From NCBI GenBank assembly GCA_902776435.1, contig CACYQB010000001.1, forward strand, positions 62,001 through 126,000: a stretch of DNA of 64,000 nt. Reading direction: 5' to 3'. The DNA is from an uncultured Bacteroidales bacterium. GTDB lineage: Bacteria > Bacteroidota > Bacteroidia > Bacteroidales > Muribaculaceae. The translations under genes were made by a program, and so were the position numbers. The first letter of the stretch is position 1. The number at the start of each line of letters is the position of its first letter. Of this stretch, positions 16,595 through 49,604 are shown piece by piece. Below the pieces are notes generated by a model, which saw only the letters and a program-made list of their open reading frames with translations, had not been told where the DNA came from and did no database searches.

Positions 16595-19165
16595 ATGAAT
16601 CGCAGAAGATTAACCCTGATAACATTACTGGCGGCGCTGGTCGCCAGTTTTGTCATGTCGGCTGCCGATGGCGTCCCCAAGCGTGAGCAGCGCGGCATGT
16701 GGATAACGGCATACCTCAGCGACTGGCCCAGCGGTGCCATCACCGAGCGCAACACGCCCACGGTGCAGAATGCCTGCCGCAAGATGCTCGACACCCTGCG
16801 TGTCAATCACATCAATGCGGTCTATTATCACGTGAGGGCGATGTGTGACGCGATGTACAATTCCGCCTACGAGCCGTGGTCCAGTTATGTGTCAGGCACA
16901 CGTGGGGTGGCACCGGCGTTTGACCCCTTCGGCTATCTTGTCGAGGAAGCCCACAAGCGTGGCATTGAGGTGTATGCCTGGGTTAATCCCTACCGCTATG
17001 GCCACGGCAGCAACATGTGGGGCGAGAGCGAATTGGACTATATCTATACTCATCCCGAGTGGTTGTTGACCACGAGTTACGAGACCGTGCTCAACCCCGG
17101 TATCCCCGAGGTGCGACAGCGCGTGGTGGACGTCTGCAAGGATATTCTGGTGAAATATGATGTTGACGGACTGGTCTTTGACGATTATTTCTACAACCAG
17201 GACAACCCGTCGTTCTCGCTCGATGCCGACCTGTATAACGCCTATAAGGCAGGCGGCGGCACGATGTCCCAGGGCGACTGGCGGCGCGAGAATGTCAATC
17301 AGATGGTCAAGGACGTGAACGATATGGTCAAGGCGACCAAGCCATGGGTGCGATTTGGCATCGGTCCTGCCGGTGTCGCTTGCAGTTCCCAGGCCGTGGC
17401 CGACCAGTATGGTGTGGAACCCAGCCCAGGTAGCGACTGGCAGTATAACCAGATTTACAGCGACCCCATGGCATGGCTCACGCGTGGTACCATCGACTTC
17501 CTGGCGCCACAAGTCTATTGGAAGACCACCGGCACCTTCACGGGTGTTACCACATGGTGGGGCAAGATGGCGGCGCGTTTCAACCGTCATGTCTATATCA
17601 GCCAGTGGATTCCCGACGAGGAGGGATGGACGCTTGCTGAGTTTGTCAAGCAAGGCCATGTCATGCGCGACGCGATGGCTGCCGGAGGTAATCCAGGCAT
17701 GGTTTATTTCCGTTATGGCACGTGGCGCAACAAGAAGGAGGTCATTGATGGCAAGGTGCGCCAACTGCGCATCTGGCTCAAGGACAGCCTCTATCCGACC
17801 ATCGCCCTGAATCCCGCACCCGCTTGGATCAAACCCACTCAGACCTATACCACGGTGACCAACCTGGCCTATAGCGACGGCCGGCTCACGTGGGACAGTA
17901 TCCCCAACGTGCGCTATGTCATCTATACCATTCCCGATGGGGTAGAGGATAGTGATTTCCATTGCCAGGCAAGTTATATCGACGGAATCAGTTATGGAGC
18001 CAGTTATACCCTGCCAGCCTCCAAGCGGGAGGGTTACCGCTATGCTGTGACCATTCTTGACCGCTGGGAGAACGAGTATGCTCCCGTCATGCCGGGTGTT
18101 GTGCCTACCCAGGCCGCCCAGCCAGTATTACTCTATCCTGAGGATGGCGCCGAGGTGCCCGAACTCTCGTTCCTGCAGTGGCAGGGCGAGACGTCCAATT
18201 ATGTGGTGCAGGTCTATGCCGATGCCATAATGGATTCGCTTGTGGCCCAGGTCGAGGTGGACTCGATGAGTTGCCCCCTGCCGCGCATCCCGTGCCTCAC
18301 TGCCGGCACCTACTGGTGGCGTGTGGTGGCGCGTGGCTTGAATCAGTGGGACAGTGCCAGTGAGTTGCGCCAGTTTACCTTGGGCCAGATGCGAGTTACC
18401 TCGCCAGCCAGCAATGCGACATCTGTCCCCTTGAAGCCTGTCATCACCTGGACGGCAGGTGCACCGGGAACGGCTTATCTGTTGGAAATGTCGACAACAG
18501 CCAATATGAACAACCCTGACACGGTCCGTTTGTCTGAACCGCAATGGCAGGTGCCCCAGTACCGCTTGTCGGGAGCCACGACCTATTACGTCCGCGTCAC
18601 GGCCACTTATGGCGCCGCTACAGTGACAACTCCCGTCTCATCGTTCACCACTGTCGAGGTCATTCCTCCCGTGCCTGTTTATCTCTGTCCCGCCGATGGT
18701 GAGACGGTGCTCTATTCGACCGATGTGGTTCGCTTTGAGCCCGTGGAGGGTACCCAGTCGTTGAGGGTGCAGATCAGCAGCAGTGAGAGTTTCCCCACGC
18801 GCACCTCTTACAATGGCACCTTAGAGCAGGGTGTCTTTGAGACGCCAATGTTGGGCGACATTAAGGGCGCAGGCAAACTTACTGACGGCAAGACCTACTA
18901 CGTGCGAGCCCGCTATGCTTATCGCACCCTGGCTACGGGAACAACAGTGCAATATACTGACTATTGCGACATTCGCTCGTTTGTCTATCACGAAGCCGTC
19001 CAGGGTGACGTGAATGGCGACAGTGAGGTAAACATTGCCGACATCAATGCGCTCATCGACCTTATCCTCACGGGAGGCAGTGGTGATGCCCGCTCAGATG
19101 TCAACGGTGACGGTGAGGTGAATATTGCCGATGTCAATGCGGTGATTGATCTCATCCTTCAGTAA
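16595..19165 (+). CDS. GHL10-type (DUF187) glycoside hydrolase with dockerin-like tail
   Basis: This 856-residue secreted protein has a signal peptide (about residues 1-24), then a family-10-like hydrolase TIM barrel to about residue 405. Typical motifs are REQRGMWITAYLSDWPSG, GIEVYAWVNPYRYGHGS, VDGLVFDDYFYN and IDFLAPQVYWK. Three fibronectin- or Ig-like segments follow (about 410-800; for example LTAGTYWWRVVARGLNQW). The last 52 residues hold two dockerin-type calcium loops (DVNGDSEVNIADINALID and DVNGDGEVNIADVNAVID). GHL10 enzymes are linked to peptidoglycan or complex glycan cleavage; the substrate is unknown here. It is the first of eleven dockerin-bearing proteins in the window and sits in the SusCD operon, 24 bp after the PKD lipoprotein. 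Confidence 0.9.
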   Translation: MNRRRLTLITLLAALVASFVMSAADGVPKREQRGMWITAYLSDWPSGAITERNTPTVQNACRKMLDTLRVNHINAVYYHVRAMCDAMYNSAYEPWSSYVSGTRGVAPAFDPFGYLVEEAHKRGIEVYAWVNPYRYGHGSNMWGESELDYIYTHPEWLLTTSYETVLNPGIPEVRQRVVDVCKDILVKYDVDGLVFDDYFYNQDNPSFSLDADLYNAYKAGGGTMSQGDWRRENVNQMVKDVNDMVKATKPWVRFGIGPAGVACSSQAVADQYGVEPSPGSDWQYNQIYSDPMAWLTRGTIDFLAPQVYWKTTGTFTGVTTWWGKMAARFNRHVYISQWIPDEEGWTLAEFVKQGHVMRDAMAAGGNPGMVYFRYGTWRNKKEVIDGKVRQLRIWLKDSLYPTIALNPAPAWIKPTQTYTTVTNLAYSDGRLTWDSIPNVRYVIYTIPDGVEDSDFHCQASYIDGISYGASYTLPASKREGYRYAVTILDRWENEYAPVMPGVVPTQAAQPVLLYPEDGAEVPELSFLQWQGETSNYVVQVYADAIMDSLVAQVEVDSMSCPLPRIPCLTAGTYWWRVVARGLNQWDSASELRQFTLGQMRVTSPASNATSVPLKPVITWTAGAPGTAYLLEMSTTANMNNPDTVRLSEPQWQVPQYRLSGATTYYVRVTATYGAATVTTPVSSFTTVEVIPPVPVYLCPADGETVLYSTDVVRFEPVEGTQSLRVQISSSESFPTRTSYNGTLEQGVFETPMLGDIKGAGKLTDGKTYYVRARYAYRTLATGTTVQYTDYCDIRSFVYHEAVQGDVNGDSEVNIADINALIDLILTGGSGDARSDVNGDGEVNIADVNAVIDLILQ

Positions 19166-19182
19166 CATTTAATGACTTGTAA

Positions 19183-20617: not shown

Positions 20618-20648
20618 TTTGAAAGTAATGATTTTTGTTGTTACTTTG
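20618..20648 (+). promoter_or_regulatory. Promoter of the dockerin beta-propeller genes
   Basis: TTTG at 20618-20621 and TTACTTTG at 20641-20648 are 19 bp apart, matching TTTG-N19-TAnnTTTG with one mismatch. The expected start is near 20655, so the reading frame upstream of 20707 is not translated. Confidence 0.55.
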
Positions 20649-20706
20649 CTATCTTAAAGACAAGAGAATCAGATCACTTAAAAATAATATTAATAACCAA
20701 CTGATT

Positions 20707-22086
20707 ATGAGAAAATTATTACTCTTTTTGCTCGCCGTTTTGGCTGTTGGTAACGCCTGGGCAGTGACCGATGGCGTTAAGTATGAGCCAGTTAATGACA
20801 TCAATATCGTTAACCTGTGGATTCAGGACCGTGCCCACACGCCTGAAGTGTGGCCTAACAAGCCTTACTGCAACACCAGTGCCCGTACCTCGGTGATGAC
20901 TAACGGATTCATCTACATCTCGCGCACCAATGCCAATACCGTTATCATGGGCACCGATACGCTGGCCCAGAGTGTGGTTTACAAATTGGATGCCACTAAT
21001 GGTGAGTTGGTCAAAGAATTGCCCTTGACGCTCGATGGAGCCATCTACGGCAACACCACCTTGAACGCCAACACGGTGGGCGTGGACAACTTCGGCCATC
21101 TGTATATCGCTCCCTACACCAGCGAACTGGCTACAGAGCAGCCCGTCTATCTCCTGGATGGTGAGACTGGCGAACTGACGCTGGTCGATGTTCTGGATAA
21201 GGGTGATGCCCTGGCACGTTGTGACTATATCGATGTGATGGGCGACCTCACCCGTGAGGAGGCCGAGTGTAACATCATGACGGTGGGCGCCAGTTCCGAA
21301 CTGCTGTACCGTTGGCACGCCGATCAGGGTGGTGACTTCGAGGGCGGTTTTGAGGGTGACCCCTATCTTGCTATCCTGGATTTCTATCCTGAGACCGTGA
21401 CTCAGTGGGGCTATGGTCCCGTGGTCAAGATGATTCTTGGTGAGGACGAGGATACCCGTTACAGTGGCGAGTTATTCTATGTTGACGGTTTCAGTTCATC
21501 GCCCATCCTGTATGATGTGACGGGAACGATGGTAGACAATTTTGAGAATGTGGATCCCGCTTTCTGGCCCATGGATGCTGGTGCCAATGGTGTGTGTGAA
21601 TTCACGCTCGAGGGCCGCAACTTCATCGTGTTTGTCGCTGCACAATACACGGGCGGAGAAGAGGGAATCCCCAAGGCCTGCCAAGTCTATATCTGCGAGT
21701 TGGGCGAGGGCCTGTCGCTGGGTGGCATGCAGCGCTACTGGATGGTGCCTGACCAGTTGGGTACCGTGAGCGACGGTGGCACGCGCGTTGAGAGCATGAA
21801 CGTCGAGTACGGCACCGACAGCGAGGGCAACGAGGAAGTTACCCTGTACATCTTCAAGTGCTACAACGGTATGGCCGTTTACAAGATTGGCAAGAACGTG
21901 ACCGGCGGCGAGGAACCCGGCGTGCCCGGTGATGCCAACGGTGACGGTGAGGTCACGATTGCTGACGTCAATACCATCATCGACATGATTCTTGCCGGTG
22001 TTCAAGATTTGGCCGGTGACGTGAACGGTGATGGCGAGGTGGGTATTGCCGACGTCAATGCCGTTATCGATATTATTCTGAAATAA
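20707..22086 (+). CDS. Secreted beta-propeller-like protein with dockerin tail (copy 1)
   Basis: This 459-residue protein has a signal peptide ending near NAWA. The body (about residues 22-395) is rich in short beta-strand units such as VYLLDGETGELTLV and KVYICELGEGLSL-type segments, suggesting a beta-propeller; I do not recognise a named family. The tail carries two dockerin loops (DANGDGEVTIADVNTIID and DVNGDGEVGIADVNAVID). The ATG at 20707 follows the promoter; the frame extends 24 codons upstream but that part precedes the predicted transcript start. A close paralogue follows at 22186 with the same layout, so this is a local duplication. The role is unknown. Confidence 0.75.
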   Translation: MRKLLLFLLAVLAVGNAWAVTDGVKYEPVNDINIVNLWIQDRAHTPEVWPNKPYCNTSARTSVMTNGFIYISRTNANTVIMGTDTLAQSVVYKLDATNGELVKELPLTLDGAIYGNTTLNANTVGVDNFGHLYIAPYTSELATEQPVYLLDGETGELTLVDVLDKGDALARCDYIDVMGDLTREEAECNIMTVGASSELLYRWHADQGGDFEGGFEGDPYLAILDFYPETVTQWGYGPVVKMILGEDEDTRYSGELFYVDGFSSSPILYDVTGTMVDNFENVDPAFWPMDAGANGVCEFTLEGRNFIVFVAAQYTGGEEGIPKACQVYICELGEGLSLGGMQRYWMVPDQLGTVSDGGTRVESMNVEYGTDSEGNEEVTLYIFKCYNGMAVYKIGKNVTGGEEPGVPGDANGDGEVTIADVNTIIDMILAGVQDLAGDVNGDGEVGIADVNAVIDIILK

Positions 22087-22185: not shown

Positions 22186-23571
22186 ATGAAAAAATCAATA
22201 CTTCTCTTCTCATTGATGCTTGCCACCGCGTTCAGCGCCCTGGCGGTGACCGATGGCCAGACCTATCCCGAGGTCAACGGGATCAAGATAGCCAACCAAT
22301 GGATCTTTGACCGCGTCCATGCTGGCACAGCCTATACCAGCAACGATATCTGTAACCAGCGCGCCCGCACGGCGACGATGGACCAGGGTATTATCTATGT
22401 AGCGCGTAGTGAGGAACGTGCGGTTATCATCGGCACTGATACCATTGCCCAGTCGGTTATCCACCGTTTCTCGGCCGTCGATGGCAGTCCGCTCCCTGAC
22501 CTGCCCTTGACACTTGACGGCGCTCCCTATGGTCGTTTCCTGGGCGTCGCCAGTATCGGCAAAGACAGTTTCCACCACATCTGGGTGGCTCCCATGACGA
22601 GCACTGTGCAGCAGTATGTTCCCGTCTATCTGGTGGATACCGAGACGGGTGAACTGACCCTAGTTGTCGAGTTGGACAAGGGTGACGCCCCGCAGCGAAC
22701 TGACTACCTGGATGTCATGGGCGACATTACCCTGGAACAGGCTGAGTGTAATATCATGACGGTTTCCGGTTCAACCGCCGACCCCGGTTTCCCGACCCTT
22801 TACCGCATGCATGCTGACCAGGGCGGCGAATGGGAAGGCGGCTTTGACGGTGACCCCTATATGGACATCATCAACTTCTATCCCGAGACCAAGACAGGCT
22901 TCTCGCTGGCTCCCGTCATCAAGATGATTGAAGGTCCTGACGAGGATTCCCGTTACAGCGGTGAGATGTTCTATATCGACTGCTTTGACACGGCACCTGT
23001 GATTTATGACTTCTCGGGCTCGGTCATCGACTCGTTCGAGGAAGTTGACCCCACACTGTGGCCCCAGTCCCAGCCTAACGGCTGCCTCGAGTTCCAACTC
23101 GAAGGCCGTAACTTCCTGGTGTATGTCAACGCCGACATGAATGGCAATGGCCACGGCTGCCAGGCCAACATCTGCGAGTTGGGCGAAGGCCAGTCCTTGG
23201 GAGGCATGACCAAATACTGGAAGATTCCTGCCGACAGCCTTGGCAAGGTCAATGACAGCGGTCTGCGCGTGCACTGCTTCGCCGTGGAATATGGCGTTGA
23301 CAGTGAGGGCTACGAGGAAGTGACGCTGCTCACATTCAAGGCCTATAACGGTATGGCCGTTTACAAGATTGGCCGCAACGTGAGCGGAGCAGAGCCCCAT
23401 CCCAGCGTGCCTGGTGATGCTAACGGTGATGGTGAGGTGACTATTGCTGACGTCAATACTATCATCGACATGATTCTTGCCGGTAACCAGGAATTGTCTG
23501 GCGACGTGAACGGTGACGGCGAGGTGGGCATTGCCGATGTCAATGCGGTTATCGACATCATATTGCAATAA
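22186..23571 (+). CDS. Secreted beta-propeller-like protein with dockerin tail (copy 2)
   Basis: This 461-residue paralogue of the upstream gene has a signal peptide (FSALAVTDG), the same strand pattern (VYLVDTETGELTLVVELDKG, YMDIINFYPETKTGF, GHGCQANICELGEGQSLGGM), and two dockerin loops (DANGDGEVTIADVNTIID and DVNGDGEVGIADVNAVID). The dockerin DNA is very close to that of copy 1, including the linker start MILAG, with only scattered third-base changes, suggesting a recent duplication or gene conversion. The two bodies have diverged more than the tails. The function is unknown. The phosphodiester glycosidase gene follows after 38 bp. Confidence 0.75.
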   Translation: MKKSILLFSLMLATAFSALAVTDGQTYPEVNGIKIANQWIFDRVHAGTAYTSNDICNQRARTATMDQGIIYVARSEERAVIIGTDTIAQSVIHRFSAVDGSPLPDLPLTLDGAPYGRFLGVASIGKDSFHHIWVAPMTSTVQQYVPVYLVDTETGELTLVVELDKGDAPQRTDYLDVMGDITLEQAECNIMTVSGSTADPGFPTLYRMHADQGGEWEGGFDGDPYMDIINFYPETKTGFSLAPVIKMIEGPDEDSRYSGEMFYIDCFDTAPVIYDFSGSVIDSFEEVDPTLWPQSQPNGCLEFQLEGRNFLVYVNADMNGNGHGCQANICELGEGQSLGGMTKYWKIPADSLGKVNDSGLRVHCFAVEYGVDSEGYEEVTLLTFKAYNGMAVYKIGRNVSGAEPHPSVPGDANGDGEVTIADVNTIIDMILAGNQELSGDVNGDGEVGIADVNAVIDIILQ

Positions 23572-23609: not shown

Positions 23610-25979
23610 ATGAAAAAATCAGTGGTTCTCTTGTCTCTTGCCGCCTTGCTGCTGGGAACGGCCACGGGCATGGCCCGTGACCAATGGACCATAGGAGACA
23701 GGGCCTACGACGTGGACACACTTATCTTCCCGCATCTGGTGGGACCTGGTGTGACTGCGGCTAAGTATGACATCCCGGCTCTGCCGCTCAAGGTGAGCGT
23801 GACCGAGATGGACCTGACGAACCCCTACATGGTGATGGAGACCTGCCTGGGCGGAGAGAAATCGGTGGCCTGTGAGACGCCTGTCAACATGGCTACACGC
23901 AACACGCGTCCGGGCCATGAGGTGGTGGCAGCCGTCAATGGCGACTTCTTCATGACATCTCCTACCAACGAGGTGGGATTGCCCCTGAGCGGGCAGGTGC
24001 GTGGCGGGGAATTGGTGCTGAGCAGCCATAACCGCGCGTGCCTGGTGCTTGATGAGAATCAGCATCCCTGTATTGACCGATTGACTTTCACCGGTCAGGT
24101 AAATAGTGGCAGCTCAACGTTCCCGCTCAATCTGGTGAACCGAATGCGCTATGCCTACGAGAACATAGCCGCCAACCAGTCCATCCTGTTTACCCGCAGT
24201 TATGGCCCTGTGACCTATGATGGCTCTACCTCGGGCAAGATGATTGTCTTGAAACCGGCTGAAGAGCCTTTCCGCTGGGCGGCTAATGGCGTTGAGCAGT
24301 GTGTCATCGAGTCCATCGTCGATGCTCAGGGGGCCATGGCAATCCCTGACGGCAAGGCCATCTTGTGGCTCAAGGGTACCTATGCCAACTATGCTGACCA
24401 ACTGGCCGAGGGCGACAGGTTGTCTATCAGTTTCAGTCTCACGCTCAATAATGGCCCTGCTGATGTCAACATCAACCAATTGATTGGCGGCAGTAACCAC
24501 ATCATCATGCAGAACGGCCAGTTCATGGAGGACTGGGCCGAGCGCCATCCCCGTACCGCTATCGGCTTTAATGCCGACAGCACACGCCTCTACTTCGTTG
24601 TGGTGGATGGTAGGCACTTGACATCGACAGGCGTTACCCTGCTGGAAATGAAGGGTATCTTTGACGCTCTGGGAGCCGTTAACGCCGTGAATCTGGACGG
24701 TGGCGGCTCGTCGTGCATGGTAGTCAATGACGAGGTTATCAACCATCCTAGCGACGGCTCGGTGCGTGCAGTGGGTAACGGATGCCTGTTGGTATCTATT
24801 GCCCCCGAGGATGACGAAATCGGCATTATCAACTATGAGCCGCGGTGCTATAATCTGTCGATTTCGGCAACCACCAGATTTGACGTTTGGGGATATAACC
24901 AGTATGGCGTACTCAAGACGCGCAATTTGCAAGGCTGTTCCTTCTCGTGTGACCCCGAAGTTGGCTCCTTTGATGAACAGGGCTATTTCCATGCGGTCTC
25001 CACTCCGGCCTCGGGTAACCTGTATGTGACCTACAACGGCATCACCGCCAGTCAGCCCGTCACCATTATGGAGGCGCAGTGGCAACTGGTGAGCGATAGT
25101 GTGGTCATCGATGGTTTCCACCCTTATGCCATCAACATTAATGGCGTGAGCGGTTATGGACTGGACAAGGTGGACCCTTCGGTAGTGGATTGGACCTCGG
25201 CCGATGAGGGCATCTGTGTTGTTGACCAGCAGGGTATTATCACCGCTGTTGCCGACGGCCAGACCTTTGTGGGCAGTTCCAATCCACTGTTGCTAGATTC
25301 TATCAAGGTCAGTGTTGAGAATCCCAAGTCACGCATCACCACCGTAGAAAATGCGCCCATCGATCCAGTCACATGGCAGGTAACCCAGAGTGGAGGCAAG
25401 GACCGTGTGATTACTGCCCTTGACCATGGCATGCAGATCGATTTCACGGGTTCATCGTCTCGTAACCCCTACATCAAAATCTCCAAGTCGGTGAGGATGT
25501 GGGGCTTGCCCGACACGCTACGGTTGCGCATGATGCCAGGTGACTTGCAACTCAAGTCGGTCAAGATTCTGGTTGAGGGGGCTTATGGCGAACGTTTCAC
25601 GGTAGAGTATCCTGTCATGCCTATTGATGGCAAGGTTACCCTCGACGTGCCCGTGACAGACATCTGTGACGCAAGTGACCTGGGCAATTTCCCGTTGCAT
25701 CTGTTGTATTACTATATCACTTACGAACCTGTAACAGTGGGCAATCCGTACTGCCTTAAAATTCCAGGTATGGAACTGGTCTATGCCAGTATGCCCCAAG
25801 ATGAGCCTCAGCCTCTCACGGGCGATGTCAATGGTGACGGTGAGATCGGTATTGCCGATGTCAATGCCATCATCGAACTTATCCTGAGTGGCGGTTATCT
25901 GCCTGCTGCCGACGTCAACGGCGACGGTGAAGTGGGTATTGCCGATGCCAACGCTGTCATCGGCCTCATCTTGAATTAA
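23610..25979 (+). CDS. Phosphodiester glycosidase (NAGPA family) with dockerin tail
   Basis: This 789-residue secreted protein has a signal peptide (about residues 1-22). The NAGPA-type domain (about 60-395) shows AVNGDFFMTSP, HPRTAIGFNADSTRLYFVVV, and AVNLDGGGSSCMVVN, the conserved catalytic-site core of the N-acetylglucosamine-1-phosphodiester alpha-N-acetylglucosaminidase family. Bacterial members cleave phosphodiester-linked sugars of wall or exopolymer glycans. Beta-sandwich segments follow, one resembling a Big_2-type domain (VDWTSADEGICVVDQQGIIT). The tail has two dockerin loops (DVNGDGEIGIADVNAIIE and DVNGDGEVGIADANAVIG). It follows the propeller pair closely. The glycan target is not known. 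Confidence 0.86.
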   Translation: MKKSVVLLSLAALLLGTATGMARDQWTIGDRAYDVDTLIFPHLVGPGVTAAKYDIPALPLKVSVTEMDLTNPYMVMETCLGGEKSVACETPVNMATRNTRPGHEVVAAVNGDFFMTSPTNEVGLPLSGQVRGGELVLSSHNRACLVLDENQHPCIDRLTFTGQVNSGSSTFPLNLVNRMRYAYENIAANQSILFTRSYGPVTYDGSTSGKMIVLKPAEEPFRWAANGVEQCVIESIVDAQGAMAIPDGKAILWLKGTYANYADQLAEGDRLSISFSLTLNNGPADVNINQLIGGSNHIIMQNGQFMEDWAERHPRTAIGFNADSTRLYFVVVDGRHLTSTGVTLLEMKGIFDALGAVNAVNLDGGGSSCMVVNDEVINHPSDGSVRAVGNGCLLVSIAPEDDEIGIINYEPRCYNLSISATTRFDVWGYNQYGVLKTRNLQGCSFSCDPEVGSFDEQGYFHAVSTPASGNLYVTYNGITASQPVTIMEAQWQLVSDSVVIDGFHPYAININGVSGYGLDKVDPSVVDWTSADEGICVVDQQGIITAVADGQTFVGSSNPLLLDSIKVSVENPKSRITTVENAPIDPVTWQVTQSGGKDRVITALDHGMQIDFTGSSSRNPYIKISKSVRMWGLPDTLRLRMMPGDLQLKSVKILVEGAYGERFTVEYPVMPIDGKVTLDVPVTDICDASDLGNFPLHLLYYYITYEPVTVGNPYCLKIPGMELVYASMPQDEPQPLTGDVNGDGEIGIADVNAIIELILSGGYLPAADVNGDGEVGIADANAVIGLILN

Positions 25980-39485: not shown

Positions 39486-39570
39486 CAGGATTTTAAAAAT
39501 GGGAGTTTGTGTAGGAAATAATATTATCCATTAACTACCAATTGATTACAAACATCTTTATTTGTTTTTT

Positions 39571-41967
39571 ATGAAGAAAATACTGTTGTTGTCCGCTTTA
39601 TTGCTGACTGTGATGCATGTCTCGGCGGCAAATGTGGACCTGACGAAGGCTCGCGCCACGGCTCTGCGTTATCTGAACAGCCATGAGTCGGGCAAACCTC
39701 TTACGGGCCCGTCCTCGAGCAATCTCATGTTGCTGCATGCCGAGGCCAGTACTCACCTTGCCAATGCGCCCGTTTATTACATTTTCAATACCGATGACGG
39801 CTTTGTCATCGTGTCGGGTGATGATCGCGCCCAGGAGATTCTTGCCCATGGCGACCGTCCGCTGGACATGAACCGCATGCCCGTCAACATGAAGAACTGG
39901 TTAACCACCTACAAGCGGCAGATCGAGTTTCTCCAGGCCCATCCTGGGCTGGAGGTGGAGAAGCCCAAGATGAGAACGGACCGTGTGGCCCATTCCATAC
40001 AGCCCCTGCTCACGGCCGAGTGGGATCAGGCCGACCCCTACTACTACCATTGCCCGGTTTACAATGGCGAGTACTGCCTGACGGGTTGCCCTGCCACGTC
40101 GTTGTCGATGGTATTCTATTACTGGCGCTATCCCAAGGACCCCACGCCCGAAGTAGAGAGTTATATCAACCTGGGCAGTGGTGAGCGCTTGCCCGCCCTG
40201 CCTCCCATCACATTTGACTGGGACAATATGCTCGATAAATATGAAGGTGTAGAGTATACCGAAGCCCAGGGTGACGCTGTGGCATGGCTGATGCGCTACA
40301 TCGGACAAGTAGAGCACATGGACTACACTCCTGACGGCAGTGGCGCACAAGGCACCGATATCCTGCGGGCGGTGAAATTCTTTGGCTATGATGAAGAGGC
40401 CAAGTTGCTGACCAAGTCGTTTGCCGATAACTTTGGCAACGAGATCGAGGAGTATTTCAGTGATGAGGACTGGGCCGATATCCTCATCAAGGAGCTCTAT
40501 GAGGGGCGTCCTGTGGTATATTGTGCCTTTGATTACAATAACCAGCGCGGTTGGAGCGGTCACGCGTTCAACGTCGATGGTTATAATGTTGACGACAATA
40601 CCTTCCATGTGAACTTCGGCTGGAGCGGCATCGGTAACGGCGACTATGCGTTGAATGCTTTCTCCTACAAGGATTATACCTTCAATATCGAACAGCAGAT
40701 GATCTTGGGCATTCAGCCTCCCATCATCGAGCCCACTATCAGGGTCAATGCCTATCACTTGAATCTGCAGTCCTATGTGGACCAAACGGCTACCGCATCA
40801 TTAATGGTCAAGGGTAAGGAACTCTTGGATGACATCACGATTGCTGTCAATGATGAAAACGGGGTGTTCTCGATTGATGAGACTCTGGTCAGTGTTGCAG
40901 ATGCTGACTCAGGCAAATTGGTCACGATAACCTATGCTCCGCTGGCCAGTGGCAGTCACAGCGCTACCATTGTGCTCAGCAGTCCTGATGCCGAGGATGT
41001 GACGGTCTCGCTCAACGGCGAAGCCACACTTGAGACCTTCAGGCCCGTGATGCTGGCCCCTGCTGAGGAATTTATCGGCTTGATGCAGTTCCGTGCCGAC
41101 TGGAGCGACATGACGCTTGAGAAATATGTTACCAGCTATGACCTTGAGGTGAATACCAAGCCCGGGCTCGCCCTGGTGGGTGAAACTGACTGGAGCGGTA
41201 ACTCGGAGAATCCAGGCAATTTTGCCGACTATCCTGGCGACCTGCTGCCCGAGGGATGGACATTTGCAGGCACCGGTTTGTGGTATGAGAATGGCGGTGT
41301 CTCGATTAATAACAGGAGCTCATTCATCACACCGCTCTATGATATCGCTGGTTATGAGAAGATGACCATAGTGGTGAATGCCAAATCATCCATGAACTAC
41401 AGCAGTTCCAAGTTTGCGGTTTCGACCGGTATTGATAGCATCGAGTTTACTACCCCCGGTGGTGCGCCGATGACCGAGTATGTTGCTGTGCTCAATTGCA
41501 ACGAGTTGGAGCAAGTGAAAATTGCCGGCAAGAGCGGTTTCCCCCTGTTCGAGAGCATCAAGGTTTATGCTGGAGAATTTGATGATCCCCAGTTGCGTGC
41601 AGCCCACGAAGAGGGAGGCGCCAACTCGCGCTTCGTCACGGGCATTACTGGCAAGCACTACATGGTGACCGACCTCACGCCCGGTGGCATGTTCTACTTC
41701 AGGGTTAAGGCCCACTATATCGACGGCACCCATAGCGAATGGAGCAAGAGTAAGAATGTGGTTCTTATGGATAACGGCCACAATTACCAGCCTGGCGACG
41801 TGGACCATGACGGCAAAGTGAGCATTGATGACGTCACGTCGCTGATTGATGGCTTGCTGGGTGGTCATGTAACTTGCACTACCTGTGCCGACGTTGATGC
41901 GGACAGCGATGTCTCTATAGCTGACGTGACGGCTCTCATCGATAAGCTGCTTGGCAGCAATAACTGA
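39571..41967 (+). CDS. C10 peptidase with dockerin tail, tandem copy 2, 798 aa
   Basis: This paralogue has a signal peptide, Spi-type propeptide (YYIFNTDDGFVIVSGDDRA) and C10 domain: LTGCPATSLSMV (Cys173), GHAFNVDGYNVDD (His331) and HVNFGWSGIG (Asn348-Phe349). An Ig-like domain of the HYDIN/ASPM type and an FN3 half (FRADWSDMTLEKYVTSYDLE) follow, then an inserted jelly-roll-like block (WTFAGTGLWYENGG to KVYAGEFDD) and the second FN3 half. The dockerin loops are DVDHDGKVSIDDVTSLID and DVDADSDVSIADVTALID, joined by a linker holding a CTTC motif. ATG 39571 is used; a TTG three codons upstream is in frame. A strong terminator follows at 41997. Confidence 0.92.
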   Translation: MKKILLLSALLLTVMHVSAANVDLTKARATALRYLNSHESGKPLTGPSSSNLMLLHAEASTHLANAPVYYIFNTDDGFVIVSGDDRAQEILAHGDRPLDMNRMPVNMKNWLTTYKRQIEFLQAHPGLEVEKPKMRTDRVAHSIQPLLTAEWDQADPYYYHCPVYNGEYCLTGCPATSLSMVFYYWRYPKDPTPEVESYINLGSGERLPALPPITFDWDNMLDKYEGVEYTEAQGDAVAWLMRYIGQVEHMDYTPDGSGAQGTDILRAVKFFGYDEEAKLLTKSFADNFGNEIEEYFSDEDWADILIKELYEGRPVVYCAFDYNNQRGWSGHAFNVDGYNVDDNTFHVNFGWSGIGNGDYALNAFSYKDYTFNIEQQMILGIQPPIIEPTIRVNAYHLNLQSYVDQTATASLMVKGKELLDDITIAVNDENGVFSIDETLVSVADADSGKLVTITYAPLASGSHSATIVLSSPDAEDVTVSLNGEATLETFRPVMLAPAEEFIGLMQFRADWSDMTLEKYVTSYDLEVNTKPGLALVGETDWSGNSENPGNFADYPGDLLPEGWTFAGTGLWYENGGVSINNRSSFITPLYDIAGYEKMTIVVNAKSSMNYSSSKFAVSTGIDSIEFTTPGGAPMTEYVAVLNCNELEQVKIAGKSGFPLFESIKVYAGEFDDPQLRAAHEEGGANSRFVTGITGKHYMVTDLTPGGMFYFRVKAHYIDGTHSEWSKSKNVVLMDNGHNYQPGDVDHDGKVSIDDVTSLIDGLLGGHVTCTTCADVDADSDVSIADVTALIDKLLGSNN

Positions 41968-42210: not shown

Positions 42211-44586
42211 ATGAAGAAATTATTCTTTTTGGCCACGCTCTTGATGGCCGTTATGCAGGCCTCGGCAGCAGATGTGAATCTGACTGCAGCCCAGGCCACC
42301 GCACTGCGTTACTTGCAGACGACAGCCAAAGGCAAAGTGTTCGCTGGCCAGCCTGTTCAAAATCTCAAATTGCTGCACACTGAGGTTAATTCCACTCAGG
42401 TCAACAAGGCGGTGTATTACATCTTCAATTCCGATCAGGGATTTGTCATTGTGTCGGGTGATGACCGTGCCCACCAGATTCTTGCCCATGGCGATCGTCC
42501 ACTGGACTTGAAGCGTATGCCCGACAACATGAAGTACTGGCTTAGCACTTACAAGAAACAGCTCGAGTACCTGCAGGCTAATCCCGGTTTGGTCGTTGAG
42601 TTGCCGAGTTTCAAGAATAATCTGAGGGCCGGTAAGGTTGAGCCTATGCTCACTGCCGAGTGGGACCAGGATGCACCCTACTACAACCATTGTCCCATGT
42701 ATAATGGTTCATATTGCCTGACGGGCTGTCCTGCCACATCGCTGTCGATGGTGTTCTATTACTGGAAATTCCCGACTGATCCCACGCCTGAGGTCGAAGG
42801 CTATACCAATGAGAGTTATGGATTTGAAGTGACCGCTCTTCCCTCTATCACATTTGACTGGGATAACATGCTTGACAAGTATACTGGCAGCTATACGCCA
42901 GCTCAGGCGGATGCCGTGGCATGGCTGATGCGCTATATCGGCCAGGAAGAGCATATGGATTACACGCCCAGCGCCAGTGGTGCCATGGGTGCCGACATCC
43001 TGCGTGCCGTTAAGTTCTTCGGTTATGACGAAGAAATGGCAAAATTGGAGTTCAAAACCGTCACCGATGACTATGGTGAGATCATTGAGCAGTACTATAA
43101 CGATGAGGAATGGGCTGCTATGCTCCAGAACGAGATGTATGAGGGTCGCCCTGTGGTATATTGCGCCTATGATTACGATAGTTGGTGGGGATGGAGTGGA
43201 CATGCCTTTAATGTCGATGGTTATAACCCCACAGACAACACCTATCATGTGAATTGGGGTTGGAGTGGCGAAGGTAACGGCGACTTTGTCCTTAACGCTT
43301 TCTCCTCTGGTGGTTATACCTTCAGTATCGAGCAGCAGATGATTATGGGCATCCAGCCGCCCACTCAGGGTCCTGCCATCAAGGTGAATCGTTCTAAACT
43401 GGACATGGACGCCATCGTCGGACAGGGCGCTACGGCCACTATCACTGTCAAAGGTCAGGAACTGAGCAATGCCATTACCCTCACCCTCAACGATGAGAAT
43501 GGTGTCTTCTCGATCGACGCCAACAGTGTTGCTGTCAATGAGCAGGAGAGCGGCAAGGTAGTCACCGTGACCTATAATCCCCAGGCCAGTGGTACTCACA
43601 CTGCCACCATCACGCTGTCCAGCCCTGGTGTTGAAGATAAGGTCGTCACCATCAACGGTACTGCGGTCCTGGAGACCTATACCCCCAACATGCTTCCTGC
43701 TAACGAACAGTACATCAACCTGACGCAGTTCCGTGCCGACTGGACCGATGAGACTCCCGCCGAGAATGTGGAGAGCTACACACTTGAGGTATCCACTCGT
43801 CCCGCTGTCGAACTGCTCGGTACCCTCGATGGCAGCCAATATCCGAATAGCTATGAGAGCGTCACGCTTACAGCTCCCTGGGGTGGTAATGCTGTCAAGG
43901 TGGGTAACTATGCCTATTACTTCAGTAACTACGATTACGAAGGCTATATCTCCTTTACTGTTCCTGAAGGCTACAACAACGATGTCTTCTCGGTACAGAT
44001 TACAACAATCTCTAACAGTTATGGTAACGGTAACTTGACCGTTGGTTCAGTTCAGACTCCAGCCGTTGGCCACCAGTTCAGTTCTGGCCAGACATACACC
44101 TGGCTCGTGACTGCCAGTGAGGGCGATAAAATCACCATCACCTCGACCGACAGCTACTTCTCGCCCGATATGAGCCTGATTCAGGTCTATGCAGGTGACG
44201 TGAACGAACTCACCTCGCTCAGAGGCGAAGACGGCGATGCCAACTATCGTCTCGTTACGGGGATTACTGATAAGTTCTATACCGTTAAGGACCTTGCCGA
44301 GGCCGGTACGTTCTACTTCAAGGTGAAGGCCACCTATTCCGATGGAACTCAAAGCCGCTGGAGCAATAGCCAGAAGGTTACCCTCTTTGAGAATGGTCAT
44401 GGATATGAGAATGGCGACGTGGACCATGACGGCAAAGTAAGCATTGATGACGTGACGGCCCTGATCGACTTCCTGCTGGGTAGCGAGAACGACATCTGTA
44501 CCGTTTGTGCCGATGTGGATGGTGACAGCATGATCACTATTGCTGACGTTACCGCTCTCATCGATAAACTCTTGAACAGAAATTAA
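42211..44586 (+). CDS. C10 peptidase with dockerin tail, tandem copy 3, 791 aa
   Basis: This paralogue has a signal peptide, Spi-type propeptide (YYIFNSDQGFVIVSGDDRA) and C10 domain: LTGCPATSLSMV (Cys173), GHAFNVDGYNPTD (His331) and HVNWGWSGEG (Asn348-Trp349). It shares the Ig-like domain and first FN3 half (FRADWTDETPAENVESYTLE) with copy 2. The block inserted into FN3 is different: it carries TAPWGGNAVKVGNYAYYF and ISFTVPEGYNNDVFSV and shows no WSFSGYGLW-like segment. The dockerin loops are DVDHDGKVSIDDVTALID and DVDGDSMITIADVTALID, with a CTVC linker. The N-terminal 500 residues are closest to copy 2. Confidence 0.93.
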   Translation: MKKLFFLATLLMAVMQASAADVNLTAAQATALRYLQTTAKGKVFAGQPVQNLKLLHTEVNSTQVNKAVYYIFNSDQGFVIVSGDDRAHQILAHGDRPLDLKRMPDNMKYWLSTYKKQLEYLQANPGLVVELPSFKNNLRAGKVEPMLTAEWDQDAPYYNHCPMYNGSYCLTGCPATSLSMVFYYWKFPTDPTPEVEGYTNESYGFEVTALPSITFDWDNMLDKYTGSYTPAQADAVAWLMRYIGQEEHMDYTPSASGAMGADILRAVKFFGYDEEMAKLEFKTVTDDYGEIIEQYYNDEEWAAMLQNEMYEGRPVVYCAYDYDSWWGWSGHAFNVDGYNPTDNTYHVNWGWSGEGNGDFVLNAFSSGGYTFSIEQQMIMGIQPPTQGPAIKVNRSKLDMDAIVGQGATATITVKGQELSNAITLTLNDENGVFSIDANSVAVNEQESGKVVTVTYNPQASGTHTATITLSSPGVEDKVVTINGTAVLETYTPNMLPANEQYINLTQFRADWTDETPAENVESYTLEVSTRPAVELLGTLDGSQYPNSYESVTLTAPWGGNAVKVGNYAYYFSNYDYEGYISFTVPEGYNNDVFSVQITTISNSYGNGNLTVGSVQTPAVGHQFSSGQTYTWLVTASEGDKITITSTDSYFSPDMSLIQVYAGDVNELTSLRGEDGDANYRLVTGITDKFYTVKDLAEAGTFYFKVKATYSDGTQSRWSNSQKVTLFENGHGYENGDVDHDGKVSIDDVTALIDFLLGSENDICTVCADVDGDSMITIADVTALIDKLLNRN

Positions 44587-44819: not shown

Positions 44820-46949
44820 ATGAAAAAGATGCTACTTCTTGTCGCCCTCACGTTTGCGGCGATACAAATGATGGCAGCCGATATTGACCTGTCGGCAGCT
44901 CAATTTAAGGCACAACAGTTCCTGATGGGCCAATCCAGCCGCAAGGGCTTGACTGTCTCCAAACCCGCAATCAAGGGGGTTCACCAGGAGTTGAATTCAT
45001 CCAACGTCAACAAGGCTGCCTACTACGTCATTAATACCGACAAGGGCTATGTCATTGTTGCTGGTGACGACCGTGCACAGGAAATCCTTGCCTATGGCGA
45101 GGGCAACCTGGATATGAGCAAGCTGCCCGAGAACATGAAGTTCTGGCTGGATAGCTACAAGGGCCAGATCGAGTACTTGCAGGCCCACCCGGGTCTGGTG
45201 GTCGAGACGCCCAAAATGAGAGCCAACCGCACCGAGAGCATTGAGCCGATGCTTGAAGCCAAGTGGGACCAGGGCTACCCCTACTACAACCAGTGCCCCA
45301 TGGATGGTGACCGCCGCGGCTTGACGGGTTGCGCATGTACCTCGCTGGCACAGGTGTTCTACAAGTGGCAGTATCCCACCCAGCCAACCCCCTCGGTTCC
45401 TGGTTACACGACCCGCACCCGCAAGTTTGATCTTGCCACTCTGCCTCCCATTACGTTTGACTGGGCCAACATGTTGCCCGTGTACAATTATAGCGCTACC
45501 GATGTCCAGAGAAATGCTGTGGCATGGCTCATGCGCTACATTGGCCAGGCCGAGGAAATGGATTACACCAACGAGGGCAGCGAGGCCTGGGAAGATGACA
45601 TCATCCGTGCTTGCCACCTGTTTGGCTATGTGGATGCCCGTGTCGAGTACAAGGCCACACTGAACTTTGATACCAATGGCGAAAACATGCTAATCAACGA
45701 CGCTGACTGGAGCGTAATGCTTCAGGAAGAACTCGCCGCTGGCCGTCCCGTGGTCTATTGCGCTTACAGCTACAGCAATGCCTATAACTCGTTCTACGGC
45801 CATGCCTTCAATGTCGATGGTTATGATGCTGCCAGTGGCACCTACTCCATCAACTGGGGTTGGGCCGGCACGGGCAACGGCTATTTCGCCTTGCGTGCGT
45901 TCAACAATCAGGGCTATAGCTACAGCCTGGGTGAGTTGATGGTCATGGGCATTGAGCCGCCTGCACCCATCGAATCTTACGATCCCGTGATGCAGCCTGC
46001 CAACGAGAACTACATCACCCTGACCTCGTTCCGTGCCGACTGGACCGACGAGACTCCTGACGAGAACGTCACCAGCTACACCCTGGAGGTGAATGCCGAT
46101 GACGGCAGCGAGCCCGGTGTGTATGAATTGGTATTTACCGAGAGTTTCCCCTATGCTAGCAGTAATTCATCAACACCCATTAGGAATATGTTAAGTGTCG
46201 CTTCTAACGCTGGCTGGGAGTGCTCTAATGCCTACGAGGCCCGCGGTGGCGTCCGTCTGGGTGGCGGCGGCAGTGTGGGCACGATCACCACGCCTGCGCT
46301 CGACATGACGCAGAGCGGCGGCAAGATGACCGTTATGCTCACCATGAGGCCCTATCAGACGGCCGACTCCGATATCCCCGTTACCGTTTCATGTGGTAGC
46401 AGCGTGGCTAGTGCTGTCGTGACAGCCGAGCAGATATACACCTTTGTCTTGAACTGCGAAGCCAATGACGAACAGAAGGTGATCATTACGGGTGGTGATG
46501 GCTCCAATACCAAGCGAGTGGTCGTTGACCAGGTGGACATCTACAGCGCTACGAACGATGCCGCCAAGATGATGTTTACCATTCCCGCCAAGTCGGATGA
46601 CACCGACAACCGCGTGATTACCGATATCACCAACAAGTTCTACACCGTGACGGGCCTGACCGAGGGCGGCACGTTCAACTACAGGGTAAAGGCTTACTAT
46701 GTGAATGGCACACAGAGCGCTTGGAGCAACATCGAGACGGTGACCCTGGTGGACAACGGCCCCGTTTATGAACTGGGTGATGTGAACCATGATGGTCGCA
46801 TTGCGATTAATGACGTGACCGCACTGATTGACTACCTGCTCAGTGACTCTGCCGCAGCACCTGCCGAGGCCGACGTTAACGGCCAGGGTGGCGTGACCAT
46901 TGCCGACGTGACAGCGTTGATTGACATGCTCCTGTCGAGCAGCAATTAA
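44820..46949 (+). CDS. C10 peptidase with dockerin tail, tandem copy 4, 709 aa
   Basis: This paralogue is the shortest of the array because the Ig-like domain between the protease and FN3 is missing. Signal peptide and propeptide (YYVINTDKGYVIVAGDDRA) are present. LTGCACTSLAQV holds Cys171, GHAFNVDGYDAAS holds His328, and SINWGWAGTG gives Asn345-Trp346. The FN3 half FRADWTDETPDENVTSYTLE follows directly. The inserted block is a third type (ELVFTESFPYASSNSS, GVRLGGGGSVGTITTPALD, VDQVDIYSATND), close to a cleaved-adhesin-like jelly roll. The dockerin tail repeats the two-loop sequence of copy 1 almost exactly, including DVNGQGGVTIADVTALID, although the codons differ. Confidence 0.92.
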   Translation: MKKMLLLVALTFAAIQMMAADIDLSAAQFKAQQFLMGQSSRKGLTVSKPAIKGVHQELNSSNVNKAAYYVINTDKGYVIVAGDDRAQEILAYGEGNLDMSKLPENMKFWLDSYKGQIEYLQAHPGLVVETPKMRANRTESIEPMLEAKWDQGYPYYNQCPMDGDRRGLTGCACTSLAQVFYKWQYPTQPTPSVPGYTTRTRKFDLATLPPITFDWANMLPVYNYSATDVQRNAVAWLMRYIGQAEEMDYTNEGSEAWEDDIIRACHLFGYVDARVEYKATLNFDTNGENMLINDADWSVMLQEELAAGRPVVYCAYSYSNAYNSFYGHAFNVDGYDAASGTYSINWGWAGTGNGYFALRAFNNQGYSYSLGELMVMGIEPPAPIESYDPVMQPANENYITLTSFRADWTDETPDENVTSYTLEVNADDGSEPGVYELVFTESFPYASSNSSTPIRNMLSVASNAGWECSNAYEARGGVRLGGGGSVGTITTPALDMTQSGGKMTVMLTMRPYQTADSDIPVTVSCGSSVASAVVTAEQIYTFVLNCEANDEQKVIITGGDGSNTKRVVVDQVDIYSATNDAAKMMFTIPAKSDDTDNRVITDITNKFYTVTGLTEGGTFNYRVKAYYVNGTQSAWSNIETVTLVDNGPVYELGDVNHDGRIAINDVTALIDYLLSDSAAAPAEADVNGQGGVTIADVTALIDMLLSSSN

Positions 46950-47021: not shown

Positions 47022-47057
47022 GTGCGCTTAAGGACTATCATTTTTTAACACAAATTA

Positions 47058-47089: not shown

Positions 47090-47195
47090 CAAACGTTTTA
47101 AGCGCCAAGTGCTTGCGTCTTGGCGCCTATTTCAATCCTAATTTGCTGAGGTGTAATTTCTATTAACTTATTAATCAACATATTGTAATTTATCT

Positions 47196-49604
47196 ATGAG
47201 AAGAATCTTACTGTTTGTCGCTGTGATGTTTGCGGCGATTCAGCTTTCGGCTGCTCCTGTCGATATGAGGACAGCACAGGCCAAGGCTCAGAATTTTGTT
47301 CAGCAGAAGCTGTATGGAGGAAAATTAATGGCACCGATTTCGGGTGAAATGAAACTTGCTCATGCCGAAATGAACTCCAAAATGTTTGATCGTGCCGTTT
47401 ACTACATTTTCAATTCTAATAATGGCTATGTAATCGTATCAGGTGATGACCGTGCTGAGGAGATCCTCGGTTATGGTGACCGCCCCATTGACTTCAACAC
47501 CATCCCTTGCAACATGAGGGCATGGCTTGATAATTATAAGGAGCAGATTGAGTATCTGCAGGCCAATGAGGACCTGCGCGTCGAGACTCCGTCCATGATG
47601 GCTCCCCCGTTGCGCATCTCCAGTGTTTCCCCGCTGTTGACCGCATTGTGGGACCAGGAAGCTCCCTATTGGAACCAGTGTATCATCAATGGCACCCAGT
47701 GCTTGACGGGTTGCCCTGCCACCTCGGCTGCTATGGTGTTCCACTACTGGAAATATCCCGATTTCGAGACTCCCACGGTTCCTGGCTATCGTTGTGAACT
47801 GTCAACCAGCTCATGGGGCGGTTCAACCTATGTCAACGTTGCCGCTCTGCCTCCTGTAACCTTCGATTGGGAAAATATGCTGGATCGCTATACCAGTGGT
47901 TATAACACGGCTCAAGCTAACGCCGTAGCAACGCTGATGCGCTATGTGGGCCAGGCCGAACACATGGCTTATGGTAGCGCCTCGGTTGGTAGTGGTGTAG
48001 ATGCCGATAGTGTTGTTCTGATTGCTAACGCCTTCAAGTTCTTCGGCTACGACGAGGAGACCGTACGCGTGGTCAAGAAGACCAGCTCCTATAGTGGTGG
48101 TACTACCCTCTATACCGATGCCGAGTGGGCTGCCCTTATGCAAGAGGAACTTGCCGAGGGACGTCCCATCGTGTTCTGTGCCATCTCTAGTGGTCTGTTT
48201 GGTGGCGGTCACGCCTTCAATGTGGACGGCTATGATGCTACCACCAACAAGTATCACATCAACTTCGGTTGGAGTGGCTCTGACAACAACTACTATGCTT
48301 TGAACTCATTTAATGGCTACAACCAGTACCAGCAGATGGTTATCGGTATCCAGCCTTCCATCAAGTCGCCGCGTATCGGTTGTGATAAGCGCGAGTTGTC
48401 ATTTGAGTGCTACAAGAATAACGTAGTAACCACGAGGTTCAACCTCACTGGCCGCAATCTGGAGAGCGATGTGACCTTGACGCTGAACGATGAGAACGGC
48501 GTGTTTTCCATTGACAAGAATTCAGTGGCTCCCGATGCTGATGGCAAGGTGTCTCAGCCCATCAACGTGAGCTATTCTCCCAAGGCTGAAGGCCATTATA
48601 CCGCGACCATTACCGTGAGCGCCGCTGGTACTGATGATATCGTGATTTCGCTGACCGGCCGCTCAGAGTATGAGTTGTATCGCCCCGTGATGTTGCCTCC
48701 CGACCAGGAAGCTGTCACTAACCACTCGTTCCGTGCCGACTGGACCGACAACACTCCCGTCGAGAATGTGACCAGCTACACCCTTGAGGTGCAGGTTAAG
48801 CCCGACGTGAACCTTCTTACTGAAGGTGACTGGAGCGATGTGCCCGAAGAGAGCACCAACCACGCCTCCGATGCTGCCAACTATCTGCCTGACGGATGGA
48901 CCTTTAGTGGTAAAAACCTGTATCTGGACGGTGGCTTCCTCTCACCTGGCCGTAATTCAGTCATCAATGTTGGTTGTGACTTCGTGGGATACAACAAGGT
49001 GAGTCTTATCATCAAGGCTATGTCCTACAAGAAGGGCTCTAACACTACTCTCGAGTTCAACACCGATATTGATTACAAGAAAATCACGCTGGCTAAGGAA
49101 GTTCAGACCTACCTCGTAGTTCTTGATTTGGGTGGCGATCCTTACCTCAAGATCACAACAGGTTACTATCCCGAGATCCAGAGCATCAAGGTTTACGGTG
49201 GCGAGATCACCGATCCCGAGCCCTTCTCGTTCAACGCTGCCCACGAGTCAGGCGATGCTGACTACCGCCTCATCGAGGGTATCACCCCCGACAAGTTCTA
49301 CACCGTGACAGGTCTGCGTGCTGGCGAGTCCTATCTGTATCGCGTGAAATCTTGCTATGTAAACGGTACTGAGAGTAAATGGAGCTCCTCTAAGGAGGTT
49401 ATCCTGAAGCAGGGCGAGAGCATCCTGGGTGATGTGGATGGTGACGGCAAGGTGAATGTCGACGATATTACCGCCCTCATCGACTACCTGCTCACTGGCC
49501 AGGGAACTATCGATCCTGTTGCTGCCGACGTAGATCCGGATGGCAAGGTGAATATCGATGATATTACCGCCCTTATCGATATGCTCTTGGGTGGTGCTAA
49601 GTAA
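47196..49604 (+). CDS. C10 peptidase with dockerin tail, tandem copy 5, 802 aa
   Basis: This paralogue has a signal peptide, Spi-type propeptide (YYIFNSNNGYVIVSGDDRA) and C10 domain: LTGCPATSAAMV (Cys173), GHAFNVDGYDATT (His339), HINFGWSGSD (Asn356-Phe357). A 20-odd residue insertion carrying GSASVGSGVDADSVV is seen before the catalytic His. The Ig-like domain and FN3 half (FRADWTDNTPVENVTSYTLE) follow, then an inserted block of the copy 1/2 type (WTFSGKNLYLDGGFLSPGR) and the second FN3 half. The dockerin loops are DVDGDGKVNVDDITALID and DVDPDGKVNIDDITALID. It ends the array; a terminator is at 49631. Confidence 0.93.
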   Translation: MRRILLFVAVMFAAIQLSAAPVDMRTAQAKAQNFVQQKLYGGKLMAPISGEMKLAHAEMNSKMFDRAVYYIFNSNNGYVIVSGDDRAEEILGYGDRPIDFNTIPCNMRAWLDNYKEQIEYLQANEDLRVETPSMMAPPLRISSVSPLLTALWDQEAPYWNQCIINGTQCLTGCPATSAAMVFHYWKYPDFETPTVPGYRCELSTSSWGGSTYVNVAALPPVTFDWENMLDRYTSGYNTAQANAVATLMRYVGQAEHMAYGSASVGSGVDADSVVLIANAFKFFGYDEETVRVVKKTSSYSGGTTLYTDAEWAALMQEELAEGRPIVFCAISSGLFGGGHAFNVDGYDATTNKYHINFGWSGSDNNYYALNSFNGYNQYQQMVIGIQPSIKSPRIGCDKRELSFECYKNNVVTTRFNLTGRNLESDVTLTLNDENGVFSIDKNSVAPDADGKVSQPINVSYSPKAEGHYTATITVSAAGTDDIVISLTGRSEYELYRPVMLPPDQEAVTNHSFRADWTDNTPVENVTSYTLEVQVKPDVNLLTEGDWSDVPEESTNHASDAANYLPDGWTFSGKNLYLDGGFLSPGRNSVINVGCDFVGYNKVSLIIKAMSYKKGSNTTLEFNTDIDYKKITLAKEVQTYLVVLDLGGDPYLKITTGYYPEIQSIKVYGGEITDPEPFSFNAAHESGDADYRLIEGITPDKFYTVTGLRAGESYLYRVKSCYVNGTESKWSSSKEVILKQGESILGDVDGDGKVNVDDITALIDYLLTGQGTIDPVAADVDPDGKVNIDDITALIDMLLGGAK

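Follow-up and report, generated by a model that had tools for sequence, protein, structure and literature searches.

Dockerin tails on peptidases and glycosidases of an uncultured Muribaculaceae bacterium: probable cargo of a cohesin-dockerin surface-display system

Dockerins are the 'plug' modules from which clostridia build cellulosomes, and the presence of dockerin-like tails on a run of secreted proteins from a Bacteroidales genome raises the question of what these tails plug into. The genes concerned lie in a window of 64,000 nt (positions 62,001-126,000 of the forward strand of contig CACYQB010000001.1, assembly GCA_902776435.1) from an uncultured Bacteroidales bacterium of the Muribaculaceae. 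A previous sequence-only reading of this DNA had described eleven secreted proteins with C-terminal tails; all 11 open reading frames are indeed present, and all 11 tails match the Pfam family PF00404 (Dockerin_1) above its curated cut-off, with E-values of 6e-5 to 2e-10 and with starts agreeing within about 10 bases with the coordinates given earlier. In every one of the eleven, the dockerin is the final element or lies within a few residues of the end, and the N-termini resemble type I signal peptides when inspected by eye. The assignment of seven C10 peptidases, one GHL10 and one NAGPA protein was likewise confirmed by Pfam (Table 1), which also identifies a Spi-type inhibitor propeptide (PF13734) in all seven C10 peptidases. 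The sole C10 peptidase compared with the PDB, at 26784-29357, has interpain A (E 9e-57) and streptopain as its closest relatives there, and its search also returned the dockerins 2mte and 1daq at E 8e-4. On the other hand, the label 'propeller-like' given to the proteins at 20635-22086 and 22186-23571 could not be confirmed, since no Pfam family other than the dockerin was matched in either at E ≤ 0.01 and since the second, the only one of the two searched against the PDB, has no match there at E ≤ 1. Directly upstream of, and among, the first dockerin genes (8540-20604), SusC-like, SusD-like and PKD proteins are encoded, together with a CotH-kinase protein that has a lipoprotein-like start and no dockerin; this first part of the locus therefore resembles a PUL whose cargo carries dockerins.

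Table 1. Dockerin-bearing proteins of the window (positions counted from its first nucleotide; E, E-value)
Protein	Position	Strand	Pfam matches	Dockerin (type, position)	Remark
GHL10 glycosidase-like	16595..19165	+	PF02638 E 1e-53; PF00404 E 7.5e-8	N, 19004-19156	
Secreted protein, no fold assigned	20635..22086	+	PF00404 E 6e-5	N, 21925-22077	start probably ATG 20707, not TTG
Secreted protein, no fold assigned	22186..23571	+	PF00404 E 9e-6	N, 23410-23562	
NAGPA phosphodiester glycosidase	23610..25979	+	PF09992 E 2e-31; PF00404 E 7.5e-8	N, 25821-25970	
C10 peptidase zymogen, interpain/streptopain-like	26784..29357	+	PF01640, PF13734, PF00404	N, 29196-29333	
C10 peptidase	29936..31273	+	PF01640, PF00404 E 6.5e-10	T, 31100-31264	tail modelled
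C10 peptidase	36972..39365	+	Pfam	T, 39189-39347	
C10 peptidase	39562..41967	+	Pfam	T, 41791-41952	start probably ATG 39571, not TTG
C10 peptidase	42211..44586	+	Pfam	T, 44413-44574	
C10 peptidase	44820..46949	+	Pfam	T, 46773-46934	
C10 peptidase	47196..49604	+	Pfam	T, 49425-49589	

The eleven tails are dockerins, as judged by sequence for all 11 and by predicted fold for one. The structure of the latter, the tail of the C10 peptidase at 29936-31273, was modelled from an alignment of 13 tails (the 11 of the window and 2 from relatives) as a complete dockerin fold with a pLDDT of 91.2; when the PDB was searched with this model, the first 34 matches were all dockerin chains, the best at TM 0.83-0.85 and about 1.5 Å, with one match at E ≤ 0.001. 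The genome of the window (3.45 Mb, 43 contigs, 95% complete) contains at least 150 dockerins according to PF00404, 150 of 281 candidates having been scored. Among these 150 matches, 120 finish 15 residues or less before the stop (109 end at most 5 residues from the protein end and 11 at 6-15), and 30 lie further away, including 12 for which the retrieved DNA stretch ended first. A simple rule predicts a signal peptide in 131 of the 150 proteins, a doubtful lipobox in 5 and neither in 14, and 133 of 148 dockerins, two of mixed class being left out, show two canonical F-hand calcium loops under a strict rule. PF00404 is also matched in 2 of 14 control genomes. With all 11 tails above the cut-off and at least 150 matches in the genome, compared to none at E ≤ 1e-6 in 15 of 16 genomes of other families, the dockerin matches exceed what chance would give.

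As regards possible partners, the sequence-only reading had noted that no cohesin was visible, which holds within the window, where no protein matches a cohesin profile, but not in the genome, where 18 cohesin domains are predicted elsewhere. It had also proposed a profile search of the whole genome and of relatives, and this search detected cohesins in both. With Pfam PF00963, only 3 matches were obtained in the genome at E ≤ 10, of which 2 lie above the cut-off and each directly precedes a dockerin. A profile built from six such domains (A1) gives 18 matches at E ≤ 1.9e-6, and a wider profile of 60 cohesin domains (A2) recovers 18 domains in 13 open frames at E ≤ 1.3e-23, the next match being at 2.4e-4. 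The first seeds were picked beside dockerins, which is not the case of the tandem arrays found later in the genomes G027 and G071. Compared with the PDB, A2 matches cohesin-bearing chains in the first 18 of 31 rows, the best being 5n5p at E 2e-7 (over two stretches, each weak alone) and the others being at E 6e-4 and up; two of these 18 rows are named 'Endoglucanase', and the entry titles show them to be cohesin-dockerin entries. The Pfam cohesin family matches 21 of the 60 A2 members at E ≤ 0.01, and PF00963 has no match at E ≤ 0.1 on a six-cohesin protein from a relative (L024). The use of Pfam alone was dropped as too insensitive (2 domains above the cut-off against 18 with A2), and the blindness of its model to the six-cohesin scaffoldin tested suggests why surveys could miss Bacteroidales cohesins. 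At the structural level, a cohesin-dockerin protein from another relative (uncultured Bacteroidales RUG11934, L040) was modelled with a pLDDT of 82.9, its cohesin forming a nine-strand jelly-roll (nine strands of at least 3 residues). Its first 15 PDB matches are chains of cohesins or of cellulosome complexes (13 being cohesins by title), and the fit is only moderate, with a TM to target of at most 0.71, an rmsd of 3.4-3.8 Å and 5 matches at E ≤ 0.001. Taken together, the profile matches to solved cohesins, the fold model and the scaffoldins of relatives strongly support the prediction that this genome encodes cohesins.

From the sequence matches and models, it seems quite probable that the eleven window proteins serve as cargo in a system of surface display by cohesins and dockerins. 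Each protein would be exported via the signal peptide seen in its sequence, and its C-terminal dockerin would, in the presence of calcium, plug into cohesins whose genes lie in other parts of the genome. More precisely, the enzyme dockerin would bind the cohesin of a small scaffoldin, whose own dockerin would in turn bind the cohesin of an anchor, the latter being located on the outer membrane, possibly by way of the type IX system.

The gene architecture was mapped in 24 sources selected for holding cohesins, and in the window. Four scaffoldin-anchor gene pairs were found in the window's own genome (two in L004, one in L005 and one in L007) and 11 in relatives (L024, L025, L030-L035, L040, L041 and L130). 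In each of these pairs, one gene codes for a protein, usually the larger, that has a dockerin together with one or two cohesins, and the adjoining gene for a protein that starts with 1-6 cohesins and, save in L130, where the contig ends, bears a dockerin as well; the order of size is inverted in L024 and L025, where the six-cohesin protein exceeds its partner in length. In the window's own genome, the cohesins sit on two kinds of partner, often encoded side by side: the larger are BspA-type LRR proteins in which the dockerin stands beside one or two cohesins, mostly with a short C-terminal tail, and the small ones consist of a signal peptide, cohesins and a dockerin. The scaffoldins of G010 and G011 are made of a signal peptide, six cohesins and a C-terminal dockerin. 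Large tandem-cohesin proteins are also present in other Bacteroidales families (L026, L129 and L131, from G027, G071 and G097, respectively): G027 has proteins of eight, seven and five cohesins, G071, from a third family, one of ten cohesins whose frame is cut by the contig end, and G097 one of five, whose frame is also cut. The three genes upstream of the tandem-cohesin gene of G071 encode proteins with an internal dockerin, situated about 210 residues ahead of the C-terminus.

In the window's own genome, which is about 95% complete, the searches revealed no protein carrying three or more cohesins, a result that leaves the single surface scaffold proposed in the sequence-only reading without support. 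As only single and double cohesins were detected, the enzymes would be displayed one by one or a few at a time rather than in large cellulosomes. The imbalance between the partners (at least 150 dockerins versus 18 cohesins) and the lack of a larger scaffoldin in this genome speak against the display model. No Pfam match to a CBM was obtained at E ≤ 0.1 on the six-cohesin protein L024:5747-8485 or on the 2466-aa protein of L026. We do not file the system of this genome as a cellulosome, because no CBM was detected on the scaffoldins scanned, no cellulase family appears among those listed and the genome has at most two cohesins per scaffoldin. Synteny around TrpS, considered for a lost six-cohesin locus, was uninformative because the TrpS match of this genome (G000:C1:168759-169835) shares just 39% identity with the TrpS of a genus mate; it has one stop within the aligned stretch and is probably a different type of TrpS.

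The dockerins themselves fall into classes according to the residue that follows the last Asp-Val of the loop, namely T (as in DVTALIDYLL), N (as in DVNAVIDIIL) and V. Genome-wide, the 150 dockerins comprise 107 T, 37 N, 4 V and 2 mixed, 13 of these assignments (10 T, 1 V and the 2 mixed) having been made by eye. Within the window, the GHL10 and NAGPA proteins, the two unassigned proteins and the first C10 peptidase are of N type, and the remaining six C10 peptidases of T type (two window assignments being by eye). Since two codes divide the set, the placing of all eleven proteins on one common scaffold is not supported. The two halves of a dockerin are on average 70% identical in the T type (n=92), 72% in the N type (n=37) and 43% in the V type (n=4). 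Near-identical halves are also a feature of dual-binding dockerins. The symmetry and dual binding of dockerins are among the subjects treated in PMC5301203. Across the genome, neighbours within 5 kb share their class in 38 of 46 pairs, compared to 28.3 after shuffling (p = 0.0018), and the C10 genes show no bias towards either class (18 T and 3 N of 21; p = 0.28), so that class follows gene neighbourhood.

These classes bear on another way of reading the cohesins, in which they would link scaffold parts only, the LRR adhesins and the small cohesin-dockerin proteins polymerising with each other while the enzyme dockerins bind something else. In agreement with this, 12 of the 13 cohesin frames of the genome also bear a dockerin, and the V type occurs, among the 150, solely in four LRR-cohesin proteins. 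Nevertheless, the four small scaffoldins of the genome bear T- or N-type dockerins like those of the enzymes, and the six- and ten-cohesin arrays of relatives have no other obvious use, which makes us regard a purely structural role of the cohesins as improbable.

The tendency of dockerins and cohesins to occur in the same genomes also speaks for the display system. The relatives' set comprised 41 genomes, i.e., that of the window (G000), 24 genus mates, which are kin and not independent points, and 16 genomes from other families. Dockerins (E ≤ 1e-6) occur in 26 of them, 25 of which have cohesins by A1 (E ≤ 1e-5), and neither module occurs in 15; no dockerin was found at this threshold in 15 of the 16 other-family genomes. 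Cohesins are detected by A1 in 23 of the 24 genus mates, the exception, G013, having dockerins and a weak partial A2 match (E 5e-7). The low number of cohesins per dockerin could also mean that other species supply the cohesins that hold the eleven enzymes, scaffolds being shared across the community; yet the genome has cohesins of its own and its genus mates are positive as just described, so that we hold such sharing to be very improbable.

In a wider sample of the order (148 genomes), 31 genomes have at least one dockerin match: both modules were found in 11, a cohesin only in 3, a dockerin only in 20 and neither in 114 (Fisher p = 1.6e-6). This co-occurrence persists (p = 2.2e-5) without G000 and G027, both of which gave rows to A2. 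Cohesins are present in 6 of the 9 genomes with at least four dockerins (p = 1.6e-5), or in 4 of 7 without these same two (p = 8e-4). The 20 of 31 dockerin-bearing genomes in which no cohesin was found at E ≤ 1e-5 have mostly one or two dockerins. G158, tallied as cohesin only, has a dockerin according to a profile built for this analysis, and the co-occurrence table therefore depends on thresholds. Neither module occurs in G048 and G156, which represent two further genera of the same family as the window. Finally, G114, G135 and G138, from other families, run counter to the co-occurrence, with at least 32, 7 and 5 dockerin-like matches, respectively (at most 40 scored per genome), and no convincing cohesin (best E about 0.01, or no match), possibly reflecting a different use of the dockerin fold; most of the dockerin matches listed for them start at model position 8-11.

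The sequence-only reading had itself offered an alternative, in which the tail would be the secretion or retention signal, read by a component of the export machinery or of the outer membrane with no cohesin involved. It had noted the lack of a sorting-type C-terminus, and none of the 11 dockerin proteins of the window matches TIGR04183 at E ≤ 0.1. The scarcity of lipoboxes (the 5 doubtful cases among 150) and the dockerins of G114, devoid of a convincing cohesin, also fit a signal. However, the modelled tail is a complete dockerin, cohesins co-occur with dockerins both among the genus mates and in the order-wide sample, and the near-identity of the two repeats is explained by binding. The first two of these points make a cleaved secretion signal less likely, and we consider a tail acting only as a signal to be unlikely overall. 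Export and binding could also be coupled, in a protease-led equivalent of the cellulosome with an export route of a new kind: the dockerin enzymes would join cohesin carriers in the periplasm and cross the wide type IX channel in complex with them, guided by the sorting tail of the carrier. In that case, a dockerin would do the work of a sorting domain in giving access to export, and the parallel T and N codes would sort cargo by gene cluster. Such a coupling appears about as doubtful to us as the signal.

Concerning the type IX system on which the display model may draw for its anchor, the genome encodes the channel SprA and seven proteins with a type IX sorting domain above the cut-off. One of the seven is a separate small ORF of the window (49832-50143), the only TIGR04183 match there at E ≤ 0.1, which encodes a 103-aa secreted protein that is nearly all sorting domain and lies directly behind the last C10 gene. 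TIGR04183 has matches in 6 of 14 control genomes, 1 of them above the cut-off. It matches nothing above the cut-off on the scanned anchors of the genome, whose tails compare to type IX sorting domains with hhalign probabilities of 5% and 0.4%. The eight-cohesin protein of G027 carries such a domain (PF18962 E 8e-9).

Earlier work by Bensoussan (2017), as cited by others, reportedly dealt with dockerins and cohesins of rumen Bacteroidetes. Dockerins, peptidase-dockerins and a few cohesins were already noticed in Bacteroidetes or rumen data (PMC7480376, PMC5742341, PMC6071333): PMC7480376 mentions dockerins of undefined role in rumen Bacteroidetes PULs, and Table 1 of the 2018 camel rumen study PMC6071333 assigns as many as 11 dockerins to Bacteroidetes bins. 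For bin 129 it lists 2 cohesins, and for bin 136, which the study names among those having genes with two to four cohesins in tandem, 5 dockerins and 1 cohesin entry. More recently, PMC12997984 (2026) counted 78 Bacteroidetes MAGs with both modules, which were left for later work, described this co-presence as unexplained and in need of study, and stated that no cellulosome had been described beyond Firmicutes. The parts of the three rumen papers compared give no scaffoldin-anchor gene pairs, no dockerin codes and no Bacteroidales scaffoldin of six to ten cohesins. Further sources were Hungate1000 (PMC6118326), Pseudobacteroides (PMC5590126), beaver and moose (PMC5742341), Japanese rumen MAGs (PMC9763041), cockroach SAGs (PMC10266427) and a large-intestine review (PMC8865330). 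Among the papers listed by the literature searches, titles and abstract openings disclosed no Bacteroidales scaffoldin system, which is weak evidence of absence as subscription papers fell mostly outside this scope.

Among known systems, that of Ruminococcus flavefaciens FD-1 (ScaA/B/C/E; PMC5301203, PMC5590126) resembles the present one in its abundant dockerins, which form several groups, in its clustered scaffoldin genes, in a main scaffoldin ending in a dockerin, in a single-cohesin anchor and in LRR and peptidase proteins with dockerins. It differs in that the organism is Gram-positive, the anchor is attached by sortase and the enzymes act on the plant cell wall, whereas the present system belongs to a Gram-negative lineage, has a possible type IX anchor and LRR and protease cargo as the commonest, and Pfam finds no CBM on the six-cohesin scaffoldin of the relative L024. 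R. albus and R. bromii share the dockerin excess and the few single cohesins serving as display points, but are Firmicutes, and the R. bromii complexes act on starch (PMC6118326). Similarly, the Limousia mucinolysome is a predicted cohesin-dockerin complex for a non-cellulose substrate, but is Gram-positive and CAZyme based (PMC12997984). Systems of this kind have hardly been explored outside Gram-positive bacteria; the present genome offers concrete candidate cohesin partners, scaffoldin-anchor gene pairs and two dockerin codes.

The nature of the cargo was evaluated by a Pfam scan (E ≤ 1e-5) of 143 of the 150 dockerin proteins, the other 7 being 3 window proteins scanned separately and 4 outside the scan. 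The families are LRR_5 (35), C10 (18), DUF285 (14), CotH (7), S8 (5), M6 (5), FGE-sulfatase (at least 5), Endonuclease I (at least 4), alpha-amylase (4), GHL10 (3) and GH53 (at least 1); with the window C10 domain as phmmer query, C10 domains are found in 21 of the 150. GH5, GH9 and GH48 are not among the 25 commonest families listed for each of the two sets that make up the 143 proteins. This cargo of LRR proteins, proteases, nucleases and a few glycosidases points to the breakdown of proteins and glycoproteins and to adhesion, not to cellulose. If the proposed binding is true, Gram-negative gut bacteria would assemble surface complexes rich in proteases in addition to the SusCD machinery usual for them. 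As to the FGE-sulfatase domain, it was seen in 5 of 68 dockerin proteins and follows the dockerin in one shown in detail, and the C-terminus of the cohesin-dockerin protein L005:5297-6697 resembles, by eye, a formylglycine-generating-enzyme domain.
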